Under the pieces are notes generated by a model that had not been told where the DNA came from, did not search any database, and worked only from the letters and a program-made list of their open reading frames with translations. This document shows positions 3,769 through 57,443 of a DNA stretch of 64,000 nt, piece by piece; position 1 is the stretch's first letter, and the number at the start of each line of letters is the position of its first letter. This DNA comes from an uncultured Polaribacter sp. Its GTDB lineage: Bacteria > Bacteroidota > Bacteroidia > Flavobacteriales > Flavobacteriaceae. The stretch covers positions 788,258-852,257 of the forward strand of contig CALSRX010000004.1 in the NCBI GenBank assembly GCA_943788865.1. The letters run 5' to 3'. A program made the translations under genes and the position numbers.

Positions 3769-3833
3769 GATTTATCGAAAAGGCTTATATTAATTTATGT
3801 GTAGATAAGTAAGATTGCAGCAACAAACCAACT

Positions 3834-3892
3834 GTCATTCCTGCCTTTCGACTCCGCTCAAGATAAACTTCGGTAGGAATTTTGTCATTAAT
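3834..3892. repeat. Short intergenic repeat B, copy 1
   Basis: It starts GTCATTCCTGCC and contains TTCGACTCCGCTCAAG. It recurs at 5507-5563 with only a few differences. The ends can fold back (TTCCTGCC against GGCAGGAA, one mismatch in this copy). Confidence 0.8.
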
Positions 3893-3908
3893 AATGCTAT
3901 ATACATAG

Positions 3909-3958
3909 AGATTTCTCGACTTCATTTCTTTTCTCTCCATTTCGCTCGAAATGACAGT
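3909..3958. repeat. Short intergenic repeat D, divergent copy
   Basis: AGATTTCTCGACTTCATTTC through CGAAATGACAGT is a diverged version of the second half of the 94-bp repeat at 3963-4056. Confidence 0.65.
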
Positions 3959-3962
3959 AAGG

Positions 3963-4056
3963 TGTCATCTCGACCTTGTGGAGAGATCTATATTAATTCT
4001 TGTAGATTTCTCGACTTCATTTCGTTCCACTCCATTTCACTCGAAATGACAGTTTT
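3963..4056. repeat. 94-bp repeat C+D, copy 1
   Basis: It begins TGTCATCTCGACC and ends CGAAATGACAGTTTT. It matches 5643-5736 base for base except at one position (3976, T versus C). Such recent identity 1.68 kb apart suggests duplication or gene conversion. Confidence 0.85.
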
Positions 4057-4115
4057 ACGTAGTTTGAGTTTTGGTTGTTCAATAATCAATACTATTTGTT
4101 TGAGAGTTGTTACAA

Positions 4116-4142
4116 TGTCATCTCGACCCTGTGGAGAGATCT
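4116..4142. repeat. Repeat C, partial third copy
   Basis: TGTCATCTCGACCCTGTGG and the next 8 bases match the first 27 bp of the 94-bp repeat. The D half is absent here. Confidence 0.7.
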
Positions 4143-4190
4143 CACTTCAGTATTCCTATTACAAATACACAGCCTGCAACTCTTTATTTC

Positions 4191-4344
4191 TTAACTTTTT
4201 CTTGATAAAAAGTTACAAACCTGCCTGCCGGCAGGCAGGAATCAAACCCTGCCACAGGAAATTCTTGCGGATCCTTCACTATCAACACTTCATGCATAAA
4301 GCTCCGCTTTGCACTTCCGTGTTTTCGCTCTTTATTTCTTTGAC
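4191..4344. repeat. Palindromic repeat A, copy 1
   Basis: The 154-bp unit contains a perfect 20-bp palindrome at 4220-4239 with CCGG at its centre, then a decayed CAGGAA/TTCTTG pair, then the hairpin AAAGC-TCC-GCTTT. It shares nearly all of its sequence with the copies at 4648-4830 and 5126-5286. Confidence 0.85.
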
Positions 4345-4647
4345 CGACTGACTGCTTAAAAATGTATTGCTAAATAAAAAGATGATAAGATTCACTAAAT
4401 CCAAATGTCCATAATCGTTGCAGACGAGCTTCAATAAGAGATAAATGCGAAGCAGCAAAAGCTGTTTGAGGCTTTAGCCGAGTTCTTTTGGAGCAGCTTT
4501 TTTCTCGTTAATTGAACGTCGAAACGTAAAGGACTAGACTTTTTTGGTTCTTTTTTCGGCAATGGAAAAAAGAATAAGAGATTACTTCGTAGGTATTCTC
4601 CTTATAATTTCGACATAACGAAGCATGACAGAGACGATTTTTATTCT

Positions 4648-4830
4648 TTAACTTTTTCTTGATGAATACTTCGACATGCTCAGCACAGGCGTTACAAACC
4701 TGCCTGCCGGCAGGCAGGAATCAAACCCTGCCACAGGAAATTCCTGCGGATCCTTCACTATCAACACTTCATGCATAAAGCTGCGCTTTGCACTTCCGTG
4801 TTTTCGCTCTGTATTTCTTTGACAGGATGC
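4648..4830. repeat. Palindromic repeat A, copy 2 (with a small internal replacement)
   Basis: This is the same unit as at 4191, with the palindrome at 4699-4718 and an intact CAGGAA-A-TTCCTG hairpin. Between 'cttgat' and 'gttac' the usual AAAAA is replaced by about 27 bp containing TTCGACATGCTCAG, which resembles part of repeat B, so one repeat family appears to have landed inside another. Confidence 0.85.
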
Positions 4831-5125
4831 CTTTAATAAAATACAGAAATTTATATCAGCATCTAACTCGGCATCTATACTTTTTCGCTATAAAACAACA
4901 AGTCCTTTAGCAAGGGATGAAGCAGTGTCCAAAGAGTGAAACGGTCTGGGCGCGGAGGATAAAAGGAGTTGGTAGTTTTAACGTAAAAGAATGAAAGCCT
5001 AGATTTTTGGTTCTTTTCAGCGATGGAAAAGAACAGAATAAAAATTTTTTTCTCTTTATATAATATTCATTTATTAAATAATAGCTTAAAATGAACGAAA
5101 TAGAAAAAACATCTCTTTATGTCTT

Positions 5126-5286
5126 TTAACTTTTTCTTGATAAAAAGTTACAAACCTGCCTGCCGGCAGGCAGGAATCAAACCCTGTCATAGGAAATTCC
5201 TGCGGATCCTTCACTATCAACACTTCATGCATAAAGCTCCGCTTTGCACTTCCGTGTTTTCGCTCTGTATTTCTTTGACAGGATGC
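5126..5286. repeat. Palindromic repeat A, copy 3
   Basis: The third unit has its perfect 20-bp palindrome at 5155-5174 and an intact CAGGAA-A-TTCCTG-type hairpin arm (first base changed). It shares the extra tail AGGATGC with copy 2. Confidence 0.85.
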
Positions 5287-5455
5287 TTACAATCTATATG
5301 AAGAACAAAACATCAGTATCAAACACGGCACCTATACTTTTTTGCTTAAAACCTGTACCGAACTTGATTCGGTATTTTCGGCAATGGAAAAAAGAACATA
5401 ACCATTGAGAATCTTTCAATCATAATAATTTAATCTCTCTCTTAACTTTTATCTA

Positions 5456-5490
5456 TAAGATTACTTCGTCGAAACCTCCTCGTAATGACG
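5456..5490. repeat. Half-copy of the 'GTCATTGCGA' repeat family
   Basis: Read on the minus strand this starts GTCATTACGAGGAGG and ends AAGTAATCTTA, a diverged half of the palindromic element found whole inside prmC at 56838-56909. Confidence 0.5.
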
Positions 5491-5506
5491 TTGCTTAATA
5501 TGTATT

Positions 5507-5563
5507 GTCATTCCTGCCTTTCGACTCCGCTCAAGATAAACTTCGGCAGGAATCTTATCATTA
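5507..5563. repeat. Short intergenic repeat B, copy 2
   Basis: It matches 3834-3892 closely. In this copy the outer arms TTCCTGCC and GGCAGGAA are perfectly complementary. Confidence 0.8.
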
Positions 5564-5642
5564 TAAACATCACCCTAGAGATTTCTCTATTCCGCTTCGC
5601 TCTAACTGTCTGTCGAAAGACAGGCTCGAAATGATGGTACAA

Positions 5643-5736
5643 TGTCATCTCGACCCTGTGGAGAGATCTATATTAATTCTTGTAGATTTCTCGACTTCAT
5701 TTCGTTCCACTCCATTTCACTCGAAATGACAGTTTT
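5643..5736. repeat. 94-bp repeat C+D, copy 2
   Basis: Identical to 3963-4056 except for one base. It ends 15 bp before the stop codon of murF, which reads in from the right. Confidence 0.85.
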
Positions 5737-56007: not shown

Positions 56008-56529
56008 TTAAAAGTATGCTGTTGGCGGTTCCCAAGTTTTGTCGCTTCCAACAATATTTCTTGGCGGACTAACAATTTCCATCCAAATAGGAATAACTTT
56101 TATCAATATATAACTCTCTTTTTTATTGGGATAAAATGATTTCCAAGTTTCTTTCCAATGCTTGTTTTTTTCTTGTTGATTGTCAACTAAAGTTGCTTTG
56201 CCGTGAATAGTTACGTAACCAGAATCATCTTTGTCTCTATAATAAATGGTGACCAACTTATTTTGTTTGATTTGTGCCACTTTTCTGCTTGTTGGATTTG
56301 TGCCAAACCATACCGCTAAATTTTCTTCTGGCGGAAAGGGATCCATCATTCTAACTCTAGAAATTCCGTTTTTATCTTGAGTAATCAATGCACAAATTCC
56401 GGTTGAATTCATGATTTCTTTTGCCGCTTTTATCAATACTTCTTTTGAGAAAGAAGTGTTTTTGGTTTGTGTAAACCCAACAAATGAAACTGAAAATAGT
56501 ATAAATAGGAGTAGATTTTTTTTTATCAT
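56008..56529 (-). CDS. Exported pyridoxamine 5'-phosphate oxidase-like (flavin-binding) protein
   Basis: The 173-residue protein has a signal peptide (MIKKNLLLFILFSVSFVGFTQ) and a split-barrel flavin-binding fold: GICALITQDKNGISRVRMMD near 43, NLAVWFGTNPTSRKVAQIKQ near 69, and KLVTIYYRDKDDSGYVTIHG near 91-110. It lacks the C-terminal signature of true PdxH. Such proteins bind FMN, F420 or haem and act on varied substrates; a secreted one is unusual. Its start overlaps the prmC stop by 4 bp (ATGA), so it is translationally coupled to prmC. Confidence 0.75.
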   Translation of the reverse strand: MIKKNLLLFILFSVSFVGFTQTKNTSFSKEVLIKAAKEIMNSTGICALITQDKNGISRVRMMDPFPPEENLAVWFGTNPTSRKVAQIKQNKLVTIYYRDKDDSGYVTIHGKATLVDNQQEKNKHWKETWKSFYPNKKESYILIKVIPIWMEIVSPPRNIVGSDKTWEPPTAYF

Positions 56530-57443
56530 AATACTGTAGATTTTGTCATTCTATCGTTTCCGAAAATATCTTTTCTTAATTCTGTTTGAAATCCTTTTTT
56601 AGTTAATAGACTTACAGTTTCATTCCCTAAATATTGATTGATTTCAAAATACAAAACACCATTTACTGTTAAGTGGTTTTTAGCTAATTCTGCTATTTTT
56701 TTATAAAATACTAAAGGGTTTTCGTCATCAACAAATAATGCCAAATGTGGTTCATTTTCTATAACGTTTGGCTGTATTTCTTTTTTTTCCAATTCACGAA
56801 CGTAAGGCGGATTGGAAACGATAATGTCAAACTGTTTGTCGTTGCGAGGAGTTTTCGACGTGGCAATCTCATTGCTATTTTGAGATTGCTTCATTTCATT
56901 CGCAATGACGTTTAGCGAGGTTGCTCTTAAAATATCTTGCTCAATAAAATTAATTTGAACATCATTTAATTCAGCATTTTCTTTTGCAATTTTGATTGCT
57001 TTTGATGAAATGTCAATTGTTGTAATGTCTGAGTTTGGTAAATTTTTAGCTAAAGCAATAGGGATGCATCCAGTACCTGTACCAATTTCTAAAATAGATA
57101 AAGAAGCGTTTTTTTTAGAATCATTTATAATCCATTGTACTAATTCTTCGGTTTCTGGCCTTGGAATTAAGGTATCTTTTGTAACTTTAAAAGGTAAGCC
57201 ATAAAATTCAGTTTCTCCTAAAATATACTGAATTGGTTCTTGATTTTTTAAACGTGATAATGAATTGTATAAGTGTTTGAATGTATCTTCGGAAATGCTT
57301 ACTTGATTGTTTAAAGCAACATCGATTCGTTGCAATCCAAGCTCTTTTTCTATCAATAAAAAAAAGAAAGAGTCAATTTCTGTTTGAGGAAAAACCGCTA
57401 ATAATTCTTTATTAAAATGATTTCTGAATTCTTTTATAAACAT
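56526..57443 (-). CDS. prmC: Peptide chain release factor N5-glutamine methyltransferase, with a repeat-derived 24-residue insert
   Basis: PrmC methylates the glutamine of the GGQ motif in release factors RF1 and RF2. The 305-residue protein has the N-terminal helical domain (EPIQYILGETEFYGLPF near 69-85), the SAM motif ILEIGTGTGCIPIALA at 117-132, and the catalytic NPPYV at 211-215 after FDIIVS. Family members are about 277-290 residues. Residues 179-202 (VIANEMKQSQ ... TPRND) do not belong to the fold and are encoded by a 72-bp palindromic repeat, still in frame, in the loop before the strand carrying NPPY. It overlaps the next gene by 4 bp and starts 1 bp after the GNAT gene. Confidence 0.92.
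   Translation of the reverse strand: MFIKEFRNHFNKELLAVFPQTEIDSFFFLLIEKELGLQRIDVALNNQVSISEDTFKHLYNSLSRLKNQEPIQYILGETEFYGLPFKVTKDTLIPRPETEELVQWIINDSKKNASLSILEIGTGTGCIPIALAKNLPNSDITTIDISSKAIKIAKENAELNDVQINFIEQDILRATSLNVIANEMKQSQNSNEIATSKTPRNDKQFDIIVSNPPYVRELEKKEIQPNVIENEPHLALFVDDENPLVFYKKIAELAKNHLTVNGVLYFEINQYLGNETVSLLTKKGFQTELRKDIFGNDRMTKSTVL
56838..56909 (-). repeat. 72-bp palindromic repeat inside prmC
   Basis: On the plus strand it starts GTCGTTGCGA and ends TCGCAATGAC, one mismatch short of perfect 10-bp terminal inverted repeats. Inside is a perfect 9-bp inverted repeat GCAATCTCA (56863-56871)/TGAGATTGC (56881-56889). Its length, a multiple of three, keeps the prmC frame open. Diverged half-copies occur in the intergenic field near 5456-5490. 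Confidence 0.85.

Follow-up and report, generated by a model that had tools for sequence, protein, structure and literature searches.

Rickettsia are obligate intracellular alphaproteobacteria. In-frame palindromes within genes are best known from this genus, and scattered cases from elsewhere are in print (PMC3733652, PMC2996958). The Rickettsia palindromic elements (RPEs) are described as palindromic repeats of about 150 bp (PMC10969869), which Ogata and colleagues found in frame in unrelated housekeeping genes; they encode a recurring peptide, typically in non-structured segments, and belong to several families per genome (PMC10969869, PMC2996958, PMC3733652). They are cited as an example of in-frame palindromes (PMC10969869, PMC6649704). 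Protein-coding palindromes are also mentioned from Wolbachia and Methanocaldococcus jannaschii, so that the kind does not appear to be confined to Rickettsia (PMC2996958). A 2024 review describes the frequency of in-frame palindromes in Rickettsia as unusually high and considers similar protein evolution in other prokaryotes conceivable (PMC10969869).

REPs are defined in one source as seldom overlapping coding regions (PMC12306157). The account of the CGTC-tagged REPs by Di Nocera, De Gregorio and Rocco (2013; PMC3733652) places them in five phyla including Bacteroidetes, with G. forsetii as a carrier. As described there, the terminal tag is CGTC, often TGTC, the stem measures 8-9 bp with a loop of 4-5, and the unpaired tail is mostly CCA. 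Head-head dimers predominate and most copies are intergenic; in-gene copies are reported from several species, with the most in R. conorii, and many of them code for 20-30 residues. RPE-4 and RPE-6 are equated with this super-family, and the CGTC repeats are described as lacking an associated transposase. In-gene cases from Bacteroidetes may already stand in the published per-species list of this source.

In-frame fusions by MITEs are called not unusual (PMC10969869). The QMITE of Coxiella are described as short, palindromic, non-autonomous, gene-overlapping repeats, some of them in frame in hypothetical proteins; those in annotated functional genes lie at 3' ends, and full-size QMITE2 shows 7-9 bp direct repeats (PMC5896051). 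In Nematomorpha mitochondria, palindromes are reported to be translated within conserved genes and to have been gained and lost. They are long perfect inverted repeats, apparently actively maintained, and the passages dealing with them do not describe a dispersed sequence family, unlike the element reported here (PMC6649704). In the literature searched, which mostly excluded subscription papers, none of the titles listed dealt with in-frame palindromes of Flavobacteriaceae.

The element that we describe from a Polaribacter prmC gene has in common with the RPEs, by their description, that a palindromic repeat lies in frame within protein-coding genes. It differs from them in size, its in-gene copies measuring 66, 69 or 72 nt, and in its hosts, which are marine Bacteroidota (Polaribacter and other Flavobacteriaceae). 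Unlike the RPEs, it is read in one frame only among the cases found here, and the same PurL linker is occupied in ten genera and also holds other repeats. With the Coxiella QMITE, as these are described (PMC5896051), it shares the short, palindromic, non-autonomous and gene-overlapping character. The element appears to work like the RPEs and resembles the CGTC-type REP dimers, a known kind in a new form.

The element inside prmC and its site in relatives

The window, that is the whole 64-kb stretch of DNA analysed, contains the following features:

56526..57443, minus strand: prmC, release factor N5-glutamine methyltransferase, which carries the insert (305-aa ORF; TIGR03534; fold match 2b3t)
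56838..56909, minus strand: palindromic element, in-frame insert of prmC, 72 nt, coding for VIANEMKQSQNSNEIATSKTPRND, residues 179-202
56838..56847, no strand assigned: outer inverted-repeat arm GTCGTTGCGA
56900..56909, no strand assigned: outer inverted-repeat arm TCGCAATGAC
56863..56871, no strand assigned: inner inverted-repeat arm GCAATCTCA
56881..56889, no strand assigned: inner inverted-repeat arm TGAGATTGC
5419..5489, plus strand: second, degenerate match to the element, 41.4 bits, E 1.8e-7 (E-values are rough)

The 305-aa ORF scored above the curated cut-off of TIGR03534 (PrmC; E 1.5e-72) and contains the whole 72-nt element, which adds 24 residues (179-202) and leaves the frame intact. 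Read in the coding direction, the element runs GTC ATT GCG ... AAC GAC and lies closely upstream of the NPPYV motif. The earlier note had proposed just this arrangement, a 72-bp palindrome with near-perfect outer and 9-bp inner inverted repeats inside prmC, ahead of NPPYV and without damage to the frame, and both the sequence and the profile match bear it out: the outer arms GTCGTTGCGA and TCGCAATGAC form Watson-Crick pairs at 9 of 10 positions, the remaining pair being G-T, and the inner arms GCAATCTCA and TGAGATTGC are paired at 9 of 9. Folded as single-stranded DNA, the plus strand reached -13.2 kcal/mol (z = -3.8) and none of 200 shuffles was equally stable; for the minus strand 2 of 200 were as stable. 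The tetranucleotide AAAC flanks the insert on both sides, which we read as chance. An Rfam scan of the window at gathering thresholds gave two tRNAs only and no family at the element; three sub-threshold matches were to unrelated families and were disregarded. Judged from its sequence, the insert would be translated as part of PrmC.

An AlphaFold2 model of PrmC from a 58-row alignment had an overall pLDDT of 89, and its closest fold match was 2b3t, the E. coli PrmC-RF1 complex. Residues 181-198 fell below a pLDDT of 50 and were modelled without secondary structure, so the suggestion that residues 179-202 form a loop holds in the model, where the insert is predicted to be a disordered loop on an otherwise normal PrmC fold. 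The named relatives of this PrmC come from Polaribacter and other Flavobacteriaceae, the top one from a Polaribacter MAG (89%), and the family assumed in the earlier note is right. Two side observations concern other PrmC sequences. In one genome (G013:C1:4135927-4136845) PrmC was matched as two overlapping pieces in different frames, one of them with internal stops, which may be a frameshift, a pseudogene or a sequencing error. A contig titled as a Bifidobacterium breve MAG (CALPIE020000072.1) codes for a Flavobacteriaceae-type PrmC and is probably mislabelled.

The empty site, which the earlier note expected an alignment of PrmC sequences to reveal, is common. Among 54 aligned rows, 32 have exactly 4 residues at this position (LPQQ and similar) and our sequence has 28. 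Full inserts are present in 11 rows, eight of 28 residues (a net gain of 24 codons) and the others of 27, 29 and 48, the longest, from G080, made up of a full copy plus a partial one. Among the 11 rows two pairs are identical, leaving nine distinct sequences; besides our own insert, ten rows thus carry eight more distinct inserts at the same site. Nine rows are of intermediate length, which we guess to be decayed inserts, and two distant outgroup rows have 8 residues. On the PrmC tree our sequence clusters with L042 and L131, all with the insert (SH-aLRT 99), and this clade is adjoined by L018 and L043 with the empty 4-residue site (86). The tree is weak, with 22 of 46 inner branches below 80 in its quick version, and its counts of changes, 8 for full inserts or 11 with intermediates, are not usable as event numbers.

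Could the insert be an old functional extension of PrmC that is palindromic by chance, or ordinary variation of a PrmC loop? The intermediate lengths in 9 of the 54 rows and the constraint on the surrounding gene (pN 0.056, pS 0.29 against G124) would suit such an origin. However, almost the same DNA recurs at intergenic places and in genes unrelated to prmC (see below), the tree neighbours L018 and L043 have only the 4-residue site, and AlphaFold2 gives the insert no structure; we find this explanation hardly credible. Ordinary PrmC sequence had been characterized beforehand as residues carried by all relatives together with a repeat found nowhere else. Neither description holds, with 32 of 54 sites empty and tens of matches in the genome.

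A repeat family in Polaribacter

The prmC palindrome belongs to a family of repeats of which this Polaribacter genome (here G000; 2.37 Mb, 5 contigs, completeness 91.6%) has tens of copies. A BLASTN search of the genome with the element and 10 flanking bases per side, the comparison proposed at the outset, found the repeat elsewhere, with 10 matches including the query. A covariance model built from 27 copies, the prmC element among them, gave 63 matches in the same genome and 25-140 in each of 12 Polaribacter genomes, this one and 11 others (E 0.01); in these counts one palindrome may score on both strands, and they are possibly low as 150 candidates were scored per genome. The degenerate match at 5419-5489 of the window is intact only in the half AGATTACTTCGTCG..CTCCTCGTAATGAC. 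With a profile of the 24-residue peptide, 69 of 116 genomes of the genus had matches at E 0.1, many of them short and partial, and 47 had none.

The consensus of 27 aligned copies, selected as near full-length and without a count of single units, has outward GTC/GAC ends. In 61 of 68 intergenic copies GTC is preceded by a pyrimidine (all bases at this position: C 26, T 35, A 6, G 1), and in 62 GAC is followed by a purine. Two REP-like half units that point outwards, with ends YGTC ... GACR, would make up the element. The CGTC/TGTC ends, the outward-facing pair and the intergenic majority accompanied by in-gene copies are shared with the CGTC REPs. Unlike these, the element lacks the CCA tail, its first half finishing CAATCT in the consensus. 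RNAalifold gave 5+2 pairs in one half.

Other arrangements and other repeats were seen alongside this family. In G109 (G109:C1:155550-156413) and at two loci of G091 (L238 and L248) the element forms tandem arrays of many copies spaced 83-109 bases apart. Positions 3833-5736 of the window hold several other repeat types (GTCATTCCTG..., TCGAAATGAC...) and direct repeats of 165 and 113 nt. In the TrpF of this genome (L008 1905-1979; G000:C2:285977-286051) a stretch of 25 residues, CHFEQSEKSYQKNLKHPLESARGDN, has the look of a second type of palindromic repeat (GTCATTTCGA...) inserted in frame but read in another phase. The TrpF match exceeds the matched part of the profile by 27 residues, and the TrpF copy was absent among the matches listed for the short-pattern repeat search.

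Matching intergenic copies differed less than their 100-base flanks (0.062 against 0.104, pooled over 16 overlapping pairs). This, together with the stable hairpin, is what would be seen if the copies were held by a function of the DNA or RNA, as a protein-binding or structural site, and the coding copies were tolerated by-products. Yet the element is more diverged than its flank in 4 of the 16 pairs, its loop and length vary freely, and the peptide profile is without a match in the 47 genomes mentioned above; such a function seems to us rather unlikely.

From the copy number, the empty sites and the patchy distribution we infer that the element is mobile, presumably through an enzyme acting in trans. 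The more specific proposal that a transposase mobilised it found no support. At the exact ends of the 68 intergenic copies, directly adjacent direct repeats of 2-9 nt showed no excess over re-paired flanks, unlike a MITE with target-site duplication, nor did inverted flanks, and the 7-9 bp direct repeats described for QMITE2 (PMC5896051) were not seen. When both ends were shifted outwards by one base, there were 3, 3 and 2 direct repeats of 4, 5 and 7 nt against 1.0, 0.3 and 0.2 expected, but the two 7-nt cases belong to one tandem array of G109. A rare or eroded target duplication is possible, the remaining shifted-end cases being too few to build on. The GTAG-tagged REP/RAYT system, with its Y1 transposase, is also different: the ends here are GTC/GAC, and a profile search for the Y1 family (Y1_Tnp) found no match in 8 of 17 element-rich genomes, including our own. 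Over 116 genomes the association of element and Y1 was not significant (both 36, element only 33, Y1 only 18, neither 29; p 0.18). A Y1/RAYT mobiliser was rejected on these two grounds, the absence from the own genome and the missing association.

In-gene copies, reading frame and hosts

The earlier note supposed that selection keeps the length a multiple of three and the frame open. Because a peptide search favours one frame by construction, we ran a frame-unbiased test, in which any ORF of at least 120 aa in any frame that spans a copy was accepted. It covered 88 copies from 12 genomes. The starting set was 97 places, the best-scoring among more covariance-model matches, from which at least G091:C1:1513032 and a second-strand duplicate of G000:C4:595392 had been left out. 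Nine places lacked a covering stretch and were dropped; as all nine are in-gene copies of prmC or topB, the 19 in-gene copies found are an undercount. One copy near an ORF start (G100:C1:2084578) was set aside as ambiguous.

All 19 in-gene copies are in sense orientation and in phase 0, with lengths of 72 nt (14 copies), 69 nt (1) and 66 nt (4). The 68 intergenic copies are spread over the length classes 0, 1 and 2 modulo 3 (24, 21 and 23). Both supposed properties hold for the in-gene copies: lengths divisible by three in 19/19 in-gene against 24/68 intergenic copies (Fisher 1.1e-7), and an open sense frame in 19/19 against 11/68 (Fisher 7.8e-12), bearing in mind that the 19 copies represent 12 gene sites and are partly dependent. 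The in-gene copies are mostly open in two antisense frames too, 13 of 19 in each. Hand-composed profiles of two other stop-free frames recovered the same elements; the matches listed included no full-length one within an ORF exceeding 205 aa and a few partial ones in ORFs of 337-460 aa. From the sequences, the accepted frame appears charged and polar and the antisense frames rich in hydrophobic residues.

When intergenic copies were removed exactly in silico, none of the 68 joined an ORF with at least 60 aa on both sides, whereas all 19 in-gene copies did so in the control (threshold 24 aa). Gene disruption by out-of-frame copies was therefore rejected as a source of these 68, within the reach of exact removal. 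Taken together, the removal and frame tests mean that gene-breaking insertions were unseen here and that, among the matches listed, a single reading of the palindrome was found in proteins.

The profile search of the same-genus genomes, in which the matches listed are part of the total, yielded 47 distinct in-gene sequences spanning profile position 1 to at least 22. Host genes, named by NCBIfam or Pfam from one example per gene, are DNA topoisomerase III (TopB), PurL, LeuS, MenD, HisA, HemW and GltX, followed by a Type ISP-like restriction-modification enzyme, an HsdS-like subunit and two unnamed proteins. The HsdS-like copy is near the ORF start and perhaps 5' of the true start. Partial copies are found in a YdiJ-like dehydrogenase and in a 2-oxoacid dehydrogenase E2. 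In topB there are three insertion sites, all filled in G015 and likewise in G005 with the third decayed; our own genome has the third filled. Up to three element copies per gene were observed in the topB of G015, G005 and G102 (L122, L129, L137). Of 397 genomes sampled across the family, 28 had matches at E 1e-4, three of them Polaribacter; in-gene cases were again seen in PurL, GltX and Mfd among others and, identified by their flanks, in LeuS, HemW, HsdS and the unnamed membrane protein. By their positions relative to domain matches the PurL and E2 inserts lie in linkers: in PurL of G015 the element occupies residues 977-1000, just ahead of the glutaminase domain match that begins at 1003, and the E2 copy sits between the E3-binding and catalytic domains.

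We consider it very probable that this palindrome is a small, non-autonomous repeat which spreads through Polaribacter and other Flavobacteriaceae and that the copies in genes are those that pass a filter for length, frame and loop. In such a process the element would insert at many places without a clear target duplication. Intergenic copies differ in length, and most have stops in the coding frame. Within a gene, a copy would survive only if its length is a multiple of three, in one orientation and in the phase giving the stop-free, hydrophilic peptide V-I-A-N/S-x-x-K-Q-S ... I-T-S-S ... P-R-N-D, and it would also need a tolerant loop or domain linker. In our genome one copy would have satisfied this in prmC and another in topB. 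For PrmC the insert would be near-neutral.

Re-use and upkeep of filled sites

The PurL linker was read in 30 sequences, from 31 loci of which one (L325) had no match to the motif used. The element fills it in 12, a decayed form is present in 2, and 3 contain other repeats, which belong to two types or more; the 40 genomes had been picked to include filled cases, and 12/30 is thus no frequency. Nine genera besides Polaribacter have the linker filled. The other repeats recur in their own genomes: the one of G105 has 18 pattern matches including the PurL copy (up to 2 mismatches), with up to 1 mismatch that of G344 has 92, both PurL arms among them, and that of G223 has 16, among them the PurL arm, and the reversed control patterns gave 0 matches. 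Those of G223 and G344 may be one type, as they have a common motif. The linker thus carries at least three repeat types, which require independent insertions. REPs at about the same recB site in two Xanthomonas species (PMC3733652) offer a precedent, as they are reported, for such re-use.

A single old insertion could likewise account for inserts at one site, provided that gene conversion (concerted evolution) or transfer of gene segments kept them alike; this is compatible with the filtered spread favoured above. Among the points in its favour is a deficit of silent change. In six pairs of sequences that share a filled site (three pairs from topB, two from menD and one from prmC; each sequence used once, some genomes in two genes) the inserts showed 2.5 synonymous differences against 31.3 expected from the host genes, about twelve times fewer (Poisson 1.3e-11, computed at 2). 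Non-synonymous differences were near the host level (13.5 against 17.0 expected). The deficit was unexpected, and a merely neutral passenger handed down together with its host gene would not show it; the inserts may be younger than the split of the host genes, or homogenised, or constrained at the DNA level.

Inserts at the same site are also more alike (0.822, 117 pairs) than inserts that differ in both site and genome (0.751, 932 pairs), the pattern expected of descent; menD (0.92) and topB site 3 (0.855) drive the excess. The two topB inserts of G102 are 0.96 alike and reach at most 0.94 with the counterparts listed from other species, pointing to conversion or duplication inside this gene. 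The residue N precedes the prmC site in 10 of the 11 full, 6 of the 9 intermediate and 0 of the 32 empty rows; to judge by this residue, shared ancestry of the prmC inserts is possible, and we count it, like the likeness within sites and the silent deficit, against our preferred explanation. On the other hand, the eight prmC inserts compared, that of G091 being left out as a partial profile match, average 0.73 (28 pairs, one near-identical), not above the 0.75 of different sites and genomes. A single clade of filled prmC rows was rejected (p-AU 2e-4 for full inserts, 1.7e-44 with intermediates), and our own clade with G031 as one clade was not rejected (p-AU 0.28). One common ancestor of all filled sites is therefore rejected in the form of one clade; losses or transfers could still fit. 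The three or more repeat types of the PurL linker also need separate insertions. A single old insertion per site, kept alike in this way, appears possible but doubtful.

We tentatively put forward, as a minority possibility, that there is a family-wide set of sites where the palindrome returns to the same codons of essential proteins in different genera, either by fresh insertion or through gene conversion; the in-gene copies would then keep close to the consensus as their host genes diverge. If this is true, the element would act as a natural linker-scanning agent and would have equipped TopB, PurL, PrmC, GltX and MenD with replaceable disordered linkers.

The Flavobacteriaceae with the element are not known to be intracellular parasites. 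In-frame palindromes are here widespread in core enzymes of this family, with empty sites, a measurable frame filter and one linker that is re-used. At each filled site an enzyme apparently puts up with an additional 22-24 residues, and the existence of related species with filled and empty sites makes both the movement of CGTC-type repeats and the neutrality of the inserts directly testable.
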